Below, in pieces: positions 8,645 through 34,752 of a DNA stretch of 34,752 nucleotides. Within the stretch, counting starts at the first letter, position 1, and every line of letters begins with the position of its first letter. The stretch spans positions 1 through 34,752 of the IMG/VR virus record IMGVR_UViG_3300018428_000086. One strand, given 5' to 3'. The notes under the pieces were generated by a model, which was given only the letters and a program-made list of their open reading frames with translations, had not been told where the DNA came from and did no database searches. The DNA comes from a virus. The position numbers and the translations under genes are program-made.

Positions 8645-8672
8645 ATAATAACATGGATACTCATACGGTCAA
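8645..8672 (-). promoter_or_regulatory. sigma70-like early promoter
   Basis: TTGACC, 16-base spacer, TATTAT with extended -10 TG and ATCCATGT block. Dyad-symmetric 18-bp elements begin nine bases upstream of its -35. Confidence 0.86.
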
Positions 8673-8681
8673 CCTCGATCT

Positions 8682-8730
8682 GATACTATATCTTGTGCCG
8701 ACCTCTTTTCTTGGCACTATATCTTGTGGT
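8682..8730. promoter_or_regulatory. pair of dyad-symmetric elements upstream of an early promoter
   Basis: Two imperfect palindromes, GATACTATATCTTGTGCC (8682-8699) and GGCACTATATCTTGTGGT (8713-8730), 31 bp apart from start to start. They overlap the last codons of the gene ending at 8686. Centres fall about 52 and 83 bases upstream of the predicted start of the promoter at 8645-8672, the usual place for an activator. Confidence 0.6.
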
Positions 8731-10982: not shown

Positions 10983-11010
10983 AGTATAACATGGCTGGTA
11001 AAAGCGTCAA
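10983..11010 (-). promoter_or_regulatory. sigma70-like early promoter
   Basis: TTGACG, 16-base spacer, TATACT, extended -10 TG and CCATGT block. Dyad elements begin ten bases upstream of the -35. Confidence 0.87.
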
Positions 11011-11020
11011 CCTGGCAAAA

Positions 11021-11069
11021 ACCACAACATCTAGTGCCACAACCTGTGGTCGACACAAGATATAGTGCC
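11021..11069. promoter_or_regulatory. dyad-symmetric element array upstream of an early promoter
   Basis: ACCACAACATCTAGTGCC at 11021-11038 and GACACAAGATATAGTGCC at 11052-11069, again 31 bp apart and at the same distance from the promoter as the 8682 pair. Between them CCACAACCTGTGG is a shorter palindrome in step with a 15-16 bp repeat. Unlike the 8682 pair, this array is entirely intergenic. Confidence 0.65.
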
Positions 11070-13515: not shown

Positions 13516-13565
13516 CCCACAGGATGTAGTAGTTGGTCTCACAGGATGGCACAATTCATAGTCGG
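13516..13565. promoter_or_regulatory. degenerate dyad elements between the divergent early promoters
   Basis: CCCACAGGATGTAGTAGT (13516-13533) and GGCACAATTCATAGTCGG (13548-13565) keep the CAC...GTnn ends and a 32-bp step but match the consensus poorly. AT-rich TATATTATATAATATA follows at 13568-13583. The placement between two early promoters supports them more than the sequence does. Confidence 0.35.
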
Positions 13566-13595
13566 CATTATATTATATAATATACCACGGCCAGG

Positions 13596-14947: not shown

Positions 14948-15454
14948 TTATTTCGGACGGACTATTTTTGATTTCACAGGAGCCTTGCCTTTCAACTTGC
15001 CCTTGAAACTTGGTCCTTTTTGGCTGGTTCTCTTGATCTGAGCACCCTTCAACCTCAACGAACCCGCACCTGATCTCTTGGTCTGGGCCAGTTTCTTGCC
15101 TGCTATCGCGGCCTTCTGTTTTCTTTTCCTTTTGATCTTACTACCCTTGACCGGATCCAATTTCTGGAAACAGGTGCTGGGTTTGGCTACGATACGACCT
15201 TTCCTAGGTCCGGAACTACATCTGAACCCTTTCTGAGGAGCACCGCCCTTCTTTCGTCTGAAGATTTGGCTGACGCCTTCCGCAATGGCGGAATGGTCTG
15301 GGTGTGATTCAATTTCACCATTCACCATTTCTGGCACGATATTTTGTGATACTATATCTTGTGTCTGGCCTCCTTTGATGGCACTAGATGTTGTGCCACA
15401 AGATGTAGTGTCTTTAGATTCTTTTGGTGCTATTACCAATTCTGCTATCTTCAT
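14948..15454 (-). CDS. highly basic phage protein, 168 residues
   Basis: A late gene with AATAAATA five bases before the ATG. The first 60 residues are low-complexity Thr/Ser/Ile-rich and are encoded by four copies of the dyad element. A short conserved-looking core follows, GFRCSSGPRKGRIVAKPSTC near residues 76-95, then a Lys/Arg-rich tail of about 70 residues. From memory the core resembles a family in marine T4-like phages of unknown function. The composition suggests DNA binding, for example in packaged-DNA condensation; this is inference. Confidence 0.75.
   Translation of the reverse strand: MKIAELVIAPKESKDTTSCGTTSSAIKGGQTQDIVSQNIVPEMVNGEIESHPDHSAIAEGVSQIFRRKKGGAPQKGFRCSSGPRKGRIVAKPSTCFQKLDPVKGSKIKRKRKQKAAIAGKKLAQTKRSGAGSLRLKGAQIKRTSQKGPSFKGKLKGKAPVKSKIVRPK
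15333..15412. repeat. four-copy cluster of the dyad-symmetric element
   Basis: GGCACGATATTTTGTGAT (15333), GATACTATATCTTGTGTC (15348), GGCACTAGATGTTGTGCC (15380) and GCCACAAGATGTAGTGTC (15395). Starts are 15, 32 and 15 bp apart. The third copy is nearly a perfect palindrome. The 17-base string CACAACATCTAGTGCCA recurs here and at 11023. The cluster lies inside the 5' part of a coding region. Confidence 0.7.
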
Positions 15455-15459
15455 ACTGA

Positions 15460-15467
15460 TATTTATT
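15460..15467 (-). promoter_or_regulatory. T4-type late promoter
   Basis: AATAAATA on the minus strand, then five bases (TCAGT) and the ATG at 15454. Confidence 0.75.
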
Positions 15468-15469
15468 GT

Positions 15470-15516
15470 ACCTTACACCTTACAACTAACCTTACAGCAA
15501 CTGATGTTAAACCTTA
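15470..15516. repeat. ACCTTA iterations in a divergent intergenic region
   Basis: ACCTTA occurs at 15470, 15477, 15489 and 15511. The region lies between two divergent late genes and next to the dyad cluster. It could be iteron-like or chance. Confidence 0.35.
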
Positions 15517-15596
15517 TACGCCTACACTTAAGACCTAAACGCACTACAGATCGCCTGCGTTGTCTTGCACTAGATCAACTCGACCCCAATAGATGT

Positions 15597-16561: not shown

Positions 16562-16569
16562 ATTAAATA
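16562..16569 (+). promoter_or_regulatory. T4-type late promoter
   Basis: ATTAAATA, five bases (CCAGC), ATG at 16575. Predicted +1 is the A of the start codon. Confidence 0.75.
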
Positions 16570-19256: not shown

Positions 19257-19457
19257 TTACGCTACTGATAGATTCACAGCACTAGGTCCTTTAGGACCAT
19301 CCTGTGTTTCAAACGTAATAGTGTCACCTTCATTCAACGAGTTCAGGCCTGAGGCCTCCACTGCTGAGATGTGTACGAAGACATCCTTGTCTTCGCAGGC
19401 GATGAATCCAAAACCCTTTGAGGCGTTGAACCATTTCACTGTTCCTTGATTGCTCAT
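19257..19457 (-). CDS. cold-shock protein (CspA family)
   Basis: 66 residues, the normal family length. Both RNA-binding motifs are intact: RNP1 KGFGFI (residues 14-19) and RNP2 VFVHI (26-30), in the [20 protein letters not shown] context. It is an OB-fold single-stranded RNA/DNA-binding protein acting as RNA chaperone. No clear ribosome-binding site precedes the ATG. The reading frame is open for 46 further codons upstream without a usual start codon. It is flanked by two terminators, so it is probably monocistronic. Confidence 0.95.
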
Positions 19458-20776: not shown

Positions 20777-20795
20777 ATTTAATATTTTTCGCCAT

Positions 20796-20803
20796 GTTAA
20801 ATA
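20796..20803 (+). promoter_or_regulatory. T4-type late promoter
   Basis: GTTAAATA, five bases (ATTCC), ATG at 20809. It overlaps an upstream in-frame ATG at 20794, which is why that ATG is rejected as the start. Confidence 0.75.
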
Positions 20804-20808
20804 ATTCC

Positions 20809-21927
20809 ATGGGAATGAATAGAGACACATATTGTTCGCTGGCTACAGCAGGGTTTGACTACCGACAAGGGCACGTGTGTTGTCACATAAAATCTCAAAA
20901 CAAATTTGACAGCCATCATGCACTGAACAACGACAAGGAGTTAAAGACTCTCAGGGAAGATCTCGCGAATGGTATCAAAAATCCACTCTGCGATTTCTGT
21001 TGGACCTGTGAAAAAAACGGTGTTGTGTCTAAAAGACAGCAATTTTCAAAACACAAAACAGAAAGTGAGACAGAGGAGGAGAACCAAAGTAAACAATTGA
21101 AGCACCTCGTGATAGATTCCGGCAACGTATGCAACCTTGCCTGCAGAACCTGTCAGCCAGAAATCAGTTCTGGCTTGTGGATCGAGTTTCAAGCCAAACT
21201 TGGTGACAAGATGCTAGACAAAAAACCATACAAAAGGACTCCGGTAGAATCGATACTGGCTAACGACCTGACGCACCTAGAAACAATAGAGGTGCTGGGA
21301 GGCGAGCCCTTCAAAAACTTTGACCACTTGAATGTACTCGAACATCTAGTAGAGAAAGGCATGTCTAAAAAAATAAGCCTGGCCTACGTCACCAACGGGA
21401 CCGTGCCTGTGCCGGACAAGCTCAAAGAAATCTCCACGCATTTCAACAAGATAGATTTGTGTCTAAGCATTGACGCAACTGGTGACCTTTTTGAATATAT
21501 TAGGTCAAACGGCAGGTGGCACGACGTCGAAGAAAATTTGAAAGAAATGAAGGCACTCCAGAAAGAATCATGCTTCACTTTAATGATTGCACCCTCTATC
21601 AGTTGCCTAAACGTACTGCACCTACCCAAGCTCACAGAATGGTTGATGCAGAACAAGTTGGTATGGATGCTGAATTTTGTGGACACCCCACAGCATTACT
21701 CTTTCTCGATTTTTAATGCAGGACAGAAGGAATTCATAAAAGAAAAGTTGAGTGATCTCAAAATTGGCAAGGACACCGTGTGTAAGAAATTAGACGACTC
21801 TACCTTTGATAAAGGTGCAAGGGATAGATTCTACAAAGAGTTGGATTTTACAAAATCATTCAAAAAACTAGATCATGAAGTGTATCTTCAGGAACTATTA
21901 CATCTATTAAAAAACAAAGGAGGATAA
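20809..21927 (+). CDS. radical SAM protein with N-terminal Cys region
   Basis: 372 residues. The 4Fe-4S/SAM motif CNLACRTC gives Cys108, 112 and 115 in the CxxxCxxC spacing. GGEP near 164-167 is the SAM-binding glycine motif. An N-terminal region with CC near 24-25 and CDFCWTC near 61-67 could hold a second cluster, as in the phage proteins annotated as twitch-domain radical SAM. These enzymes make the 5'-deoxyadenosyl radical; the substrate is unknown. The gene is followed directly by a small coiled-coil gene. It is one of three such proteins in the window. Confidence 0.88.
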   Translation: MGMNRDTYCSLATAGFDYRQGHVCCHIKSQNKFDSHHALNNDKELKTLREDLANGIKNPLCDFCWTCEKNGVVSKRQQFSKHKTESETEEENQSKQLKHLVIDSGNVCNLACRTCQPEISSGLWIEFQAKLGDKMLDKKPYKRTPVESILANDLTHLETIEVLGGEPFKNFDHLNVLEHLVEKGMSKKISLAYVTNGTVPVPDKLKEISTHFNKIDLCLSIDATGDLFEYIRSNGRWHDVEENLKEMKALQKESCFTLMIAPSISCLNVLHLPKLTEWLMQNKLVWMLNFVDTPQHYSFSIFNAGQKEFIKEKLSDLKIGKDTVCKKLDDSTFDKGARDRFYKELDFTKSFKKLDHEVYLQELLHLLKNKGG

Positions 21928-22916: not shown

Positions 22917-24131
22917 ATGCTCATCGAAGACGTCCTTACTGAATTTAAAAGGACCCATCTAGAACACATAGAAGACATCATCATTACCGATGGTTACGAA
23001 GGTGGCAAGGCCGTTGTGGAGTATTTCAGAGGACTGTTGCTTACATTGAAGGGGACCAGTTCAGAAGCAATGAGCGTGTCCGTGAAGTGGGACGGAGCAC
23101 CTGCTGTGGTCTGTGGAACCAATCCTGCAAATGGAAAATTTTTCGTTGGCACAAAGTCAGTGTTTGCTCAGAATGCCAAAATCAATTACACTAAAAAAGA
23201 CATCGCTAAGAATCACGGAACCGAAGATCTTGGCCAGAAGTTGTTGAAGTGTCTCGTTCATCTAAAGAAACTGAACATCCGAGGAGTTGTGCAAGGTGAT
23301 TTACTTTTCACAGACGAAGACATAGTTAGGAAAAATGTAGACGGCAAACCCCACATAACATTTACGCCGAACACGATCACTTATGCAGTACCTGAACAAG
23401 GAAGCCTCGGGGCACAGGTAGACAGAGCGAAAGTTGGAATTATATTTCATACAAGTTATGTTGGCGACTCTTTGGCTGACATGAATGCTCAAGCAGGAGC
23501 GGACGTTGATTCATTCACAAAAAGTCCTGACGTGTTCTTTGACAATGCAACCTACAAGGATGTGTCTGGCAGTGCAAAATTTACAAACGACGAGACCAAG
23601 AAGTTCTTTAGCGGTATAGAAAAATTAGAAACGTTGCTGAACGCAGTGCCTACGAACTTATCAAGCGTGTTAGGACAGAATCAAGACTTTGTTCCCATGT
23701 TCCAGATGTATATCAATGCAATGGTCAAACAAGGGCAGTTGCCTGGCAACGTCAATCAGTTCCTACAGGGATTCAAAAAATTCTACGCAGATAGGATGCA
23801 ACAGCAGATATCTGGACTCAAGGCCCAGAAAGCCCTGCAGTTAAGGCAAGATAAAATGAAGCAGATGCCTGTTTTCCTGAACAGGGCTAAGAAACCTTTG
23901 CAGGCAATGTTGACTTTTTATAAGGCAGTGCAGACGATGAAGGCCTTTGTGTTGAAGAAGATGAACCAAGCACAGGCAATAGGATCTTTCCAACAAACGG
24001 ACGGTGGCCTAGAAGTCACAGAGCCTGAAGGATTTGTTGCCGTGGACAAGACAGGTAATGCCGTGAAACTTGTAGATAGATTAGGATTCTCAAGAAGGAA
24101 CTTGACTGCTGTCAGCAAATTCAAGAAATAG
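22917..24131 (+). CDS. phage protein with ligase-like KxDG motif (resembles DUF6267)
   Basis: 404 residues. SVKWDGAPAVVCG (Lys57) followed by GKFFVGTKS resembles motif I and Ia of covalent nucleotidyltransferases (DNA/RNA ligases and capping enzymes). GVVQGDLLF near 123-131 resembles motif III (DGEL-like). A clear motif IV (EGxVxK) or V is not visible, and the C-terminal 200 residues are helical and Gln/Lys-rich. From memory it belongs to a family in T4-like marine phages annotated as unknown (DUF6267). It may be a divergent or inactive nucleotidyltransferase. It overlaps the convergent gene's stop by about 40 bases. Confidence 0.72.
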   Translation: MLIEDVLTEFKRTHLEHIEDIIITDGYEGGKAVVEYFRGLLLTLKGTSSEAMSVSVKWDGAPAVVCGTNPANGKFFVGTKSVFAQNAKINYTKKDIAKNHGTEDLGQKLLKCLVHLKKLNIRGVVQGDLLFTDEDIVRKNVDGKPHITFTPNTITYAVPEQGSLGAQVDRAKVGIIFHTSYVGDSLADMNAQAGADVDSFTKSPDVFFDNATYKDVSGSAKFTNDETKKFFSGIEKLETLLNAVPTNLSSVLGQNQDFVPMFQMYINAMVKQGQLPGNVNQFLQGFKKFYADRMQQQISGLKAQKALQLRQDKMKQMPVFLNRAKKPLQAMLTFYKAVQTMKAFVLKKMNQAQAIGSFQQTDGGLEVTEPEGFVAVDKTGNAVKLVDRLGFSRRNLTAVSKFKK

Positions 24132-31038: not shown

Positions 31039-31455
31039 ATGGATAAATTGATAGAGCTCGAGCTCGAGACGTATGCGACGGGACTGATATCATCGGACCA
31101 ATACCATGGCAAACCCGTTGTGGTTTTCAATTCTGCAAGTTTTTGTGGATTCACAAACCAGATAGAAAATTTCCAACAAATGTTTTCTCAAGGACAAATT
31201 GTGCCTGTGGCCCTCCCCACAAACGAATTTGGGGGTCAGGATCCAGGTGACAATTACGAAATACAGCAATTTCTACAGAACAGGTATGCGGTGCAGTTTC
31301 CTGTCTGTCTTAAGACTGATCTCAACCATGTACTGTTTCAAAAATATGGAAAGCCGGACTGGAATTTTAACAAGTATCTATTTGATCGAGAACACAACTT
31401 TGTTGCAAAGTTTGAAAGCAATACCACACCCGAGGAACTACTGACTCATGTCTAA
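31039..31455 (+). CDS. glutathione-peroxidase-like protein
   Basis: 138 residues, somewhat shorter than the usual 155-165. KPVVVFNSASFCGFTNQIEN holds the peroxidatic Cys36 in the ASxCGxT setting. TNEFGGQDPGDNYEIQQFL replaces the usual CNQFGGQEPG, so the active-site Gln is Glu63. DWNFNKYLFDR keeps the active-site Trp108 and Asn109. Family members reduce hydroperoxides using glutathione or thioredoxin. Cys90 might be a resolving cysteine but is not in the usual place. The stop overlaps the radical SAM gene by eight bases (ATGTCTAA), so the two proteins are probably made together. Confidence 0.85.
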   Translation: MDKLIELELETYATGLISSDQYHGKPVVVFNSASFCGFTNQIENFQQMFSQGQIVPVALPTNEFGGQDPGDNYEIQQFLQNRYAVQFPVCLKTDLNHVLFQKYGKPDWNFNKYLFDREHNFVAKFESNTTPEELLTHV

Positions 31456-32740
31456 TACACCAAAAACTTTTTGTAACTATCCTTGGAAGCATCTGTACGT
31501 TCAGACCACAGGACACTTTAAGGTGTGTTGCCTGTCTCCGGAACACATCACAAAGAACGACGGGTATCACCAATACAACCTGTCAAAAGATAAAATTTCA
31601 GACAGTTGGAACAGCAATTACATGATAGAAACCAGAAAGAAAATGCTGGCGGGTGAAAGGCTAGATATCTGTAAGAGGTGCTATGACCTCGAGGACAGAG
31701 GTATCAAAAGCATGAGAAACGTGAAAGACTACGAACATTACAATGCAATCACAGTGGATGGCAAAGTCAATAACAAAATAGAACAACTAGAACTACACTT
31801 TGGAAATGTTTGTAACCTTGCCTGCAAGATGTGTAGCCAGCAATACAGTCACAAGATAGGAGAAGAGTTATTAAAGATAGGTGACAAAGAGCCCGGATTT
31901 GTTGAATGGCTCAAGAAGCAAGGTGGTGTGGTGAACAACTGGACATCTGAATTGGGAATAGTTTATGACTGGTTCAAAAACCCAAAAACAAAGAATGACA
32001 TCTTCAACTACGTAAGTGATAATGTCAGTGACCTCAATGTTGTTGGCGGCGAGCCAACTGCAATCAAGGAGTTCTATGAATTGTTGGAATTTTGTTTTCA
32101 AAAAGACACTCTACAAAAAAAGACAGTCACCTTGACGACTAATCTGACCAACACCAATCCAAAAATGATCACTTGGCTGAAGAAAGTTAAAATGATGGGC
32201 ATTTATGGTAGTGTGGACGGAATAGGAGATGTCAATGACTACATCCGCTACCCTTCAAAATGGCCAGTTATTGAAAGGTCTTTGAAGTTCTACGCTGACA
32301 TTATGAAAACTAATGACAGGTGCAGGATGACCATAGGACCAACCTTTCAGTCGCTTAACATACACAGCGTGGTTGACACAGTGCATTACGTGGAACAGTT
32401 CGAAAAGCAACATGATATTGCGGTGGATGTATGGTGGACCGGTGTAGTGACTGGGCCTCGGATCTGTGACTATTCTGTTTTGCCTGACGAGTACAAGAAG
32501 TCCGTGGCAAAAAAACTACAAGATTCACTACATAAAGTGGATAAAGTTGACAACAAAAAACAAATTGAATCGCATATTAAATCTTTACACGAAAGCAACG
32601 ACAAGTCAATGCCATTCAAAAAAGAGACCTTACAGAGTTTCATCAAATACAACGACCTACAAGACAAACATCGTGCCGGGATCACCTGGAGAAACTTGCT
32701 CCCTGGTCTTGAAAAATCGATAGATAGTTTTTTAGGCTAG
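31448..32740 (+). CDS. twitch-type radical SAM protein
   Basis: 430 residues. CNLACKMC gives Cys122, 126 and 129 for the 4Fe-4S cluster, and GGEP is at 200-203. An N-terminal module FCNYPWKHLYVQTTGHFKVC with CC at 27-28 and CKRC at 75-78 is the kind found in phage proteins annotated twitch-domain radical SAM, and may hold an auxiliary cluster. Substrate unknown. Its coupling to a thiol peroxidase is the strongest clue. The stop overlaps the convergent gene's stop in the shared CTAG. Confidence 0.9.
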   Translation: MSNTPKTFCNYPWKHLYVQTTGHFKVCCLSPEHITKNDGYHQYNLSKDKISDSWNSNYMIETRKKMLAGERLDICKRCYDLEDRGIKSMRNVKDYEHYNAITVDGKVNNKIEQLELHFGNVCNLACKMCSQQYSHKIGEELLKIGDKEPGFVEWLKKQGGVVNNWTSELGIVYDWFKNPKTKNDIFNYVSDNVSDLNVVGGEPTAIKEFYELLEFCFQKDTLQKKTVTLTTNLTNTNPKMITWLKKVKMMGIYGSVDGIGDVNDYIRYPSKWPVIERSLKFYADIMKTNDRCRMTIGPTFQSLNIHSVVDTVHYVEQFEKQHDIAVDVWWTGVVTGPRICDYSVLPDEYKKSVAKKLQDSLHKVDKVDNKKQIESHIKSLHESNDKSMPFKKETLQSFIKYNDLQDKHRAGITWRNLLPGLEKSIDSFLG

Positions 32741-34041
32741 AGGTTTTCTAAAAGTCTTGCTATCTGAGGGTATATTTTAGTGAAATCAGTTCCACGCCTG
32801 CGGTCAAGTTCGGTTAGGTATATCTTGAACTGCTTCTGTCGTTCAAGGCTTGGTTCACGTTGATCAAATTCTATCATGTTTCCCTGCATGAACTTTTTGT
32901 GGTTCTGCTTCACTGAATCCTCAAAGCCGTCTGTCTTCGTTTCAAACATATCTACTGCTTCTCTGAGTCCCCAGTCATTGATCTTACTGCCAAAGATGCC
33001 CGGATACATGTAAGGCCTGGGCGGTTGGTCATGTTGGTTTGCTTTCATCATGCTCCAGTAGATAGGTTTGACTTCCTTGGACCACTTGTTGATGTGCCTG
33101 ACCATCTCTGGCATTCCAGGCACGGCGGTCACAGTCAGTGCAGAGTTGATTGCCTGGTCTATGTCTGTGTTGTACAGCAGATGTTTGAAATTACCCAGGG
33201 CCACATTCAAGTCTAGTCCTGTCCTGACGTACTCACCTTCTTTGCCAAATGCATCACAACTGAAGAAAATTTGTACCTTGTCCAGCCTGCCACTTTTGTT
33301 GAGTCTGTCCAGCCTGTCCGTCCAGTTCTTGAACCTTTCGGATTCGATGTTGTGGTTGCTGAAAAAGACCAGAGTAAGGTCTGGATAATTGCCTTTCTCC
33401 AGAAGTTCTATAAATCTGAAAGTTTCTTTTTGTAAGAAAGGCTCTCCCCCCATAACAAACACCTTGTGTAGGTGCTGTAGATTTTTGTCTAACCATTTGA
33501 ACAACAACTCTGTATGCTCCTCGATCTTTGGATTCATCCGCCAGTTGTCGTAGTCCAGGTACACCCCGTCTTTCTTGAAGTAACCAAATCTCTTTTCTTC
33601 TTGATGTATCATGGAACTGTAGTGTGCGTCGCAGTATATACATTTTTGGTTGCAAGTGTTACCCCAGTATATTTCCAACTGCCTTGGTGTAACGTCGACC
33701 GCCTCCAGATCATTATCAAGCTCGGGCGGTGCTGTGGTCCCCTCGAGGTTAAGGTGTATCATTCTGTCGCTTGTTCCACCAGCATCTTCGATGTGTTTAC
33801 AGTGTTCACACCCATTGCCCGGCCATTCACCGCGCAACATCTTTCGCCTGGCCTCTAACTTGGCAGGCAGGTTATGGAAATTCAACTCACCATTACGAAC
33901 TTCAAGTGGATCCTGATTGACCCTATGGCAACTTGAACTGCCACCATCGGTAAGGTACACCGTGCTATGTGTCCACTTGAGCTGGCAAGGAAGTCCTTTT
34001 TTGATGGGAAAAGGTTTAGGGGGTTGATCTGATATACTCAT
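32737..34041 (-). CDS. radical SAM protein
   Basis: 434 residues from the ATG at 34041 (MSISDQPPKPFPIKKGLPCQ); the frame is open well upstream but covers the divergent nuclease gene. CNQKCIYC gives Cys130, 134 and 137, followed by FVMGGEPFLQKE as the SAM-binding GGEP. The N-terminal Cys at 19 and 38 and CEHC at 78-81 parallel the other two proteins. Substrate unknown. Its late promoter element at 34047-34054 is shared with the divergent nuclease gene. Confidence 0.9.
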   Translation of the reverse strand: MSISDQPPKPFPIKKGLPCQLKWTHSTVYLTDGGSSSCHRVNQDPLEVRNGELNFHNLPAKLEARRKMLRGEWPGNGCEHCKHIEDAGGTSDRMIHLNLEGTTAPPELDNDLEAVDVTPRQLEIYWGNTCNQKCIYCDAHYSSMIHQEEKRFGYFKKDGVYLDYDNWRMNPKIEEHTELLFKWLDKNLQHLHKVFVMGGEPFLQKETFRFIELLEKGNYPDLTLVFFSNHNIESERFKNWTDRLDRLNKSGRLDKVQIFFSCDAFGKEGEYVRTGLDLNVALGNFKHLLYNTDIDQAINSALTVTAVPGMPEMVRHINKWSKEVKPIYWSMMKANQHDQPPRPYMYPGIFGSKINDWGLREAVDMFETKTDGFEDSVKQNHKKFMQGNMIEFDQREPSLERQKQFKIYLTELDRRRGTDFTKIYPQIARLLENL

Positions 34042-34046
34042 TATTG

Positions 34047-34054
34047 TATAATTA
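34047..34054. promoter_or_regulatory. shared bidirectional late promoter
   Basis: TATAATTA on plus and TAATTATA on minus are the same eight bases. Rightward, five bases (TCTAC) lead to the ATG at 34060. Leftward, five bases (CAATA) lead to the ATG at 34041. Confidence 0.6.
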
Positions 34055-34059
34055 TCTAC

Positions 34060-34752
34060 ATGAAAATACCCGAAAACGTTCTTAAGAACAAAGGCATAGC
34101 CTACGTTCAGAAGTATCCATATGGTGAGCTCAACAGGCAGAGCAAGAACGGCAAGCGACATTACCAAACGCCCGACGGCAGGTTGGTGCCCAGCGTGACC
34201 ACGGTGTTGAGCGCCACAAAAGACATGACACATCTCAACGCATGGAAAAAACGCATAGGAGAGGCAAAAGCACAACAGATTGCAACAGAGTCGGCCAACA
34301 TAGGAACCGTGATGCACCGTAGCCTCGAGAAGCATGTGAAAGGCGAGGACAGGACCCCGGGATCGAATCTCATACAGCAGAAGGCACACACGATGGCCAA
34401 TGTGATAATTGACAATGGATTAAAGGACATCAGTGAGGTATGGGGATCAGAAGTGTCATTACACTACCCAGAACTGTACGCTGGAACGACAGATCTAGTT
34501 GCGGTTTACAAGGGCCAACCGGCCATATGTGACTTCAAACAGTCGAGGAAGCTCAAGAAGAAGGAGTGGATAGAAGATTACTTCATGCAGTTGGTCGCCT
34601 ACAGCGAGGCACACAACAAGGTGTATGACACCAACATCAAGGCCGGACGTGTGTTTATATGCACACAGAACAACGAATTCCAGACATTCGAGATAGACAA
34701 CTACGACCACTGGACCAGCGAGTGGTACAAGAAGTTGGAGCAATACTACAAG
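34060..34752 (+). CDS. PD-(D/E)XK nuclease, 3' truncated by window edge
   Basis: 231 codons to the edge with no stop. GTVMHRSLEKHV near residues 82-93 is the alpha-helical motif of RecB/Cas4-like nucleases, and YAGTTDLVAVYKGQPAICDF followed by KQS carries the Asp and D-x-K catalytic residues. YFMQLVAYSEAHN (QxxxY-like) completes the pattern. Such enzymes act as DNA exonucleases in replication, recombination or host DNA breakdown. Start chosen from the shared late promoter. Late expression would be a departure from typical recombination exonucleases. Confidence 0.85.
   Translation, partial: MKIPENVLKNKGIAYVQKYPYGELNRQSKNGKRHYQTPDGRLVPSVTTVLSATKDMTHLNAWKKRIGEAKAQQIATESANIGTVMHRSLEKHVKGEDRTPGSNLIQQKAHTMANVIIDNGLKDISEVWGSEVSLHYPELYAGTTDLVAVYKGQPAICDFKQSRKLKKKEWIEDYFMQLVAYSEAHNKVYDTNIKAGRVFICTQNNEFQTFEIDNYDHWTSEWYKKLEQYYK

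Follow-up and report, generated by a model that had tools for sequence, protein, structure and literature searches.

A four-box array of probable NrdR operators inside a marine T4-like phage late gene suggests a link between viral gene expression and the cellular dATP level

Within the 34.75-kb virus record that was analyzed here over its whole length (hereafter the window), we identified four dyads in a single late gene that are almost certainly NrdR boxes, the operator type of the bacterial ribonucleotide-reductase (RNR) repressor NrdR, as judged from their sequence. Together with further box pairs at early promoters, they suggest that the phage ties its own gene expression to the dATP level of the cell. 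The operator itself is a known one. What seems to be new is that a T4-like phage uses it, outside the nrd loci and in the form of four boxes arrayed within a gene; we found no description of NrdR boxes in phages in the literature searched, which lay mostly outside subscription journals. The source of the window is a marine T4-like phage. The 404-residue protein encoded at 22917 shows about 40% identity to proteins from Pelagibacter phage HTVC008M, T4-like cyanophages and Methylophilales phages.

The dyads lie in the minus-strand open reading frame 14948-15454, with 14-mer starts at 15335, 15350, 15382 and 15397, and are spaced by 15, 32 and 15 bp. A preliminary description of this DNA had correctly recognized the four dyads, their rhythm and their placement in this coding region; however, its positions (15333, 15348, 15380 and 15395) were about 2 bp off, and the boxes span codons 15-40 rather than a 60-residue stretch. 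The motif CACWANATNTWGTG, allowing at most one mismatch, occurs nine times in the window as against a mean of 0.58 and a maximum of three in shuffled sequences, and eight of these matches fall either in the array or in two further pairs with a 31-bp step (8684/8715 and 11023/11054). The elements of the array and its gene are:

14948..15454, minus strand: late gene for a 168-residue basic protein, carrying the array in its N-terminal part
15334..15349: putative NrdR box IV, GCACGATATTTTGTGA; variable, and absent from the relatives L025, L026 and L421
15349..15364: putative NrdR box III, ATACTATATCTTGTGT; inner pair with box II
15381..15396: putative NrdR box II, GCACTAGATGTTGTGC; forms the canonical 32-bp pair with box III
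15396..15411: putative NrdR box I (numbered in gene order), CCACAAGATGTAGTGT
15460..15467, minus strand: T4-type late promoter core, AATAAATA, with the ATG of the array gene 5 nt downstream

The inner pair II-III is separated by 32 bp, or about three helix turns, with an outer box 15 bp off on each side, so that boxes I and IV stand 62 bp, or about six turns, apart. Given this symmetry, two nested pairs in helical phase would be possible.

We take the NrdR box to be the 16-bp palindrome acaCwAtATaTwGtgt, a consensus checked against the E. coli loci and published papers. The phage dyads conform to this palindrome with its conserved C and G nine positions apart, and their steps of 32 bp (II-III) and 31 bp (the promoter pairs) correspond to two boxes with a 14-17 bp spacer. 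This agrees with published work, in which NrdR sites are palindromes of 16 bp that have a G/C pair conserved at a distance of nine and are separated by spacers of 14-17 bp (PMC12051234, PMC9110341, PMC12176259), and with the finding that NrdR needs two palindromes about three helix turns apart, its dATP-loaded tetramer bending the DNA sharply (PMC9110341, PMC12051234). It is this combination of dyad motif and 31/32-bp rhythm that suggests the identity. A matrix trained solely on the boxes of the array, as found in the window and its relatives, was also scanned over four E. coli MG1655 loci: its top pair at the nrdA, nrdH and nrdD loci was the known NrdR pair, at 31 bp in each case, while no pair was found at the nrdR locus. 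At nrdAB the matrix selects boxes 1 and 2, the pair established as the true NrdR site by a correction in 2025 (PMC12176259). The phage sites share palindrome, C/G distance and 31-32 bp spacing with the NrdR boxes known from nrd operons of bacteria (E. coli nrdAB, nrdHIEF and nrdDG; Streptomyces nrdRJ). Unlike these, they lie off the nrd genes: some precede early promoters, and four form the array within a late gene. The phage clade does encode an NrdA with its own ATP-cone; however, its gene and the arrays are separated by well over 10 kb. A reading of the boxes as elements of the phage nrdA promoter was accordingly rejected.

Searches with the whole protein recovered 26 relatives of the array gene, and those with its C-terminal domain recovered 43 viral loci with identities down to 56%. 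In the 43 viral loci encoding the gene the array is recognizable with its 32-bp step kept, and in all 22 aligned relatives the 15/32/15 spacing is invariant. The mean match of boxes I-IV in the aligned relatives is 10.8, 11.6, 11.7 and 10.9 out of 12, as against 7.6, 7.6, 8.9 and 8.5 after synonymous recoding; in each of the 22 relatives, none of 2000 recodings reached the observed four-box total. The best-conserved boxes are those of the canonically spaced inner pair. Among the most diverged orthologs (L426 and L427, 56-57% identity) the tail is shorter and its boxes number three, at 32/15, with a weak first box, and in L417 the rhythm is kept with weak boxes.

Since a step of 32 bp is not divisible by three, one and the same DNA word falls into two reading frames, yielding TTSSG/TTSSA at boxes I-II and TQDIVP/PQDIVP at boxes III-IV. 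That one word is translated in two frames and surpasses all the recodings tested indicates that selection acts on the DNA. These peptide repeats are the one point in favor of a low-complexity protein repeat that resembles a DNA dyad by chance. Such a repeat would hardly give two different peptides from one word, outdo every synonymous recoding, or recur as the same word in non-coding promoter regions, and we regard this explanation as ruled out for practical purposes. The pattern set beforehand as speaking against a DNA element, namely a peptide kept while its DNA drifts, was found in reverse: motif and spacing hold constant against a drifting peptide, and the motif occurs in two reading frames. 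Nor is there support for the recombination-spread element that had been proposed, as the array occupies the same place of the same gene in every relative.

The 168-residue basic protein belongs to no family in Pfam or PHROGs. Its residues 1-72 are predicted to be disordered, and the AlphaFold2 model (mean pLDDT 52) is informative solely for this disordered N-terminus. The late promoter core preceding the gene is often TATAAATA in the relatives. Across the clade contigs, 149 of 357 NTAAATA sites are followed by an ATG at 5-8 nt, which suggests that the late mRNAs are probably leaderless; on a leaderless transcript the array would be placed at about +44 to +121. Further late promoter cores occur in the window at 16563, 140 and 27544. 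Between two divergent late promoters, at 15467-15560, are variable tandem TAAGGT/TAAGCATCAG repeats, which are present at the same place in most relatives with differing copy number; the neighboring ACCTTA repeat reported earlier thus indeed adjoins the array.

Elsewhere in the window, canonical box pairs are found at early promoters:

8645..8673, minus strand: early promoter, TTGACC ... TGTTATTAT, preceding genes for a cell-wall hydrolase and an ATP-dependent DNA ligase, among others
8683..8729: putative canonical NrdR box pair (31 bp), centers at -54.5/-85.5 of the promoter at 8645-8673
10983..11011, minus strand: early promoter, TTGACG ... TGTTATACT
11022..11068: putative canonical NrdR box pair (31 bp), centers at -55.5/-86.5 of the promoter at 10983-11011
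13517..13532: weak single NrdR-like box, CCACAGGATGTAGTAG, near the plus-strand early promoter at 13595

These pairs are helically phased to the -35 element of the early promoters. In the clade contigs the centers of the promoter pairs fall at -54.5/-85.5 or -55.5/-86.5, and two contigs have the pair displaced outward by one turn (-64.5/-95.5 and -65.5/-97.5); some other pairs of the clade are more than 100 bp upstream or without a recognized promoter. Because few ancestral loci gave rise to the promoter pairs, the phasing rests on few independent events. It argues for NrdR regulating phage transcription. Comparison of the promoters bore out the earlier remark that the array itself adjoins no early promoter, for which reason its role is less certain than that of the promoter pairs.

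Taken together, we consider it probable, with modest confidence, that these elements are dATP-gated operators for the host NrdR, with the array likely acting as a roadblock or silencer and the promoter pairs forming a phage NrdR regulon. Motif identity, spacing, DNA-level selection, early-promoter phasing and phage contigs without a detected NrdR are computed results; the binding of host NrdR, the direction of its effect and its trigger we infer. NrdR forms a DNA-binding tetramer only with dATP plus ATP or ADP. At high dATP the host protein would occupy the array and bend the DNA, probably blocking the late transcription unit from its position at +44 to +121, and the block would lift once phage replication lowers dATP; it is the location of the array just inside a leaderless late transcript that favors such a dATP-gated roadblock. 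The array and the phased early-promoter pairs would thus couple phage transcription to the dNTP pool. Neither upstream positions of -55/-86 nor an array within a gene at +44 to +121 is usual for NrdR, and activation rather than repression is therefore conceivable at the early promoters. The earlier suggestion of a titration or silencing site was of the right kind, though it did not recognize the probable binder.

We surveyed the wider distribution of exact pairs in 2.9 million viral contigs of IMG/VR, which are fragments, some of them perhaps misclassified host DNA, and found a 31-bp step in 57 stretches and a 32-bp step in 110, whereas the half-turn-off control distance of 26 bp gave none. 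In bacterial genomes 55 of 81 pairs have an E. coli-type nrd homolog no more than 2.5 kb away, a lower bound because the class II NrdJ was not among the queries, and the four-box layout is absent from the 81 bacterial pairs checked. Outside the clade, an nrd homolog was seen at three viral loci of the 32-bp set and at none of the 31-bp set. An NrdR pair with TTGAC in its spacer directly precedes the portal and protease/capsid genes of one unrelated phage family (L178:6450-6495 and its relatives L162, L206 and L180). Eight NrdR-like boxes in a row with three- or four-turn spacings are found intergenically in the unrelated viral contig L081 (1369-1640).

The main rival to dATP-gated operators is that the boxes are decoys, titrating host NrdR as phage genomes multiply and thereby derepressing the host RNR genes; the array would then be the strongest sponge and its genic place incidental. 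The array is box-rich without an adjoining early promoter, other phages have multi-box arrays far from nrd genes (L081 with eight boxes, L090 with four), and RNR (PF02867) is encoded in only four of the 50 non-clade viral contigs with pairs, all as would be expected of decoys. Further, lytic infection by a pneumophage strongly upregulates the host NrdR regulon (PMC6755750). However, no box pair above chance was found in that pneumophage, SpSL1 (L378), so host nrd derepression occurs without decoys, which weakens the argument. Decoys also need no phasing, whereas both of the other box-bearing loci in the window keep helical phase with early promoters, and the clade phages carry an RNR of their own. 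E. coli NrdR binds at about 100-190 nM (PMC12176259), at which affinity a few sites per genome would titrate it only late in infection. Finally, the frequency of extra boxes near viral pairs does not significantly exceed that near bacterial pairs (19/99 versus 11/78, p = 0.42), and an excess of multi-box arrays in viruses was accordingly rejected. On balance, we consider decoys unlikely.

It is improbable that the boxes serve a phage regulator sharing the recognition sequence of NrdR: the boxes are indeed phased to early promoters and the phage genomes are incomplete, but both recognition sequence and 31/32-bp phase coincide with those of NrdR, and the 15 clade contigs, all of them fragments, encode neither an NrdR Zn-ribbon nor an ATP-cone outside NrdA. 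A phage-encoded NrdR was rejected as the binder, none being found in these contigs. Still less probable is an array functioning as a replication origin, as had been raised earlier, or as an initiation-control site dNTP-gated by NrdR. Divergent late promoters, the variable TAAGCATCAG/TAAGGT repeats and a nearby coding-strand switch would suit an origin; however, GC skew, when checked, tracks coding direction with nothing specific to the array, and no known origin element was identified, leaving the proposal without positive evidence.

NrdR has been described as a dedicated repressor of RNR genes. Phage-conserved operators off the nrd genes would extend its regulon to viruses and would tie the phage transcription program to nucleotide supply in a direct and testable way. 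In the array, moreover, we have a clear example of a disordered protein tail whose peptide is dictated by a regulatory element in the DNA. Comparable are the stoperators of mycobacteriophage L5, repressor sites scattered through the genome and in part within transcribed regions; the sites described here differ in being symmetric, host-type operators in helical phase, with no NrdR-type phage repressor found in the 15 clade contigs, in a phage not known to be temperate. Phage GIL01 uses the host LexA and LexA boxes (PMC4551915, PMC6182141). The phage studied here would similarly place its promoters under a host stress or metabolite sensor, though this would be NrdR and dATP rather than LexA and DNA damage, in a T4-like phage and with an intragenic array.

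More tentatively, it is possible that diverse phages, including this T4-like clade, independently recruited the host NrdR as a dATP gauge, with operators at early and structural-gene promoters and the intragenic four-box array timing phage transcription, and perhaps replication, to a dNTP pool that the phage itself depletes. No close cultured relatives of the clade were found, and HTVC008M, Melnitz-3, S-CAM9, S-PRM1, T4 and three other phages contain unpaired near-matches only. In two other viral contigs (L092:3917 and L093:3759) NrdR box pairs are located 58 bp upstream of small XRE-type regulators. The window further encodes a cold-shock domain protein (Pfam CSD; 19257-19457, minus strand) and, on its late side, CxxxCxxC proteins at 20794-21927, 31448-32740 and 32737-34389, two of which match radical SAM families.
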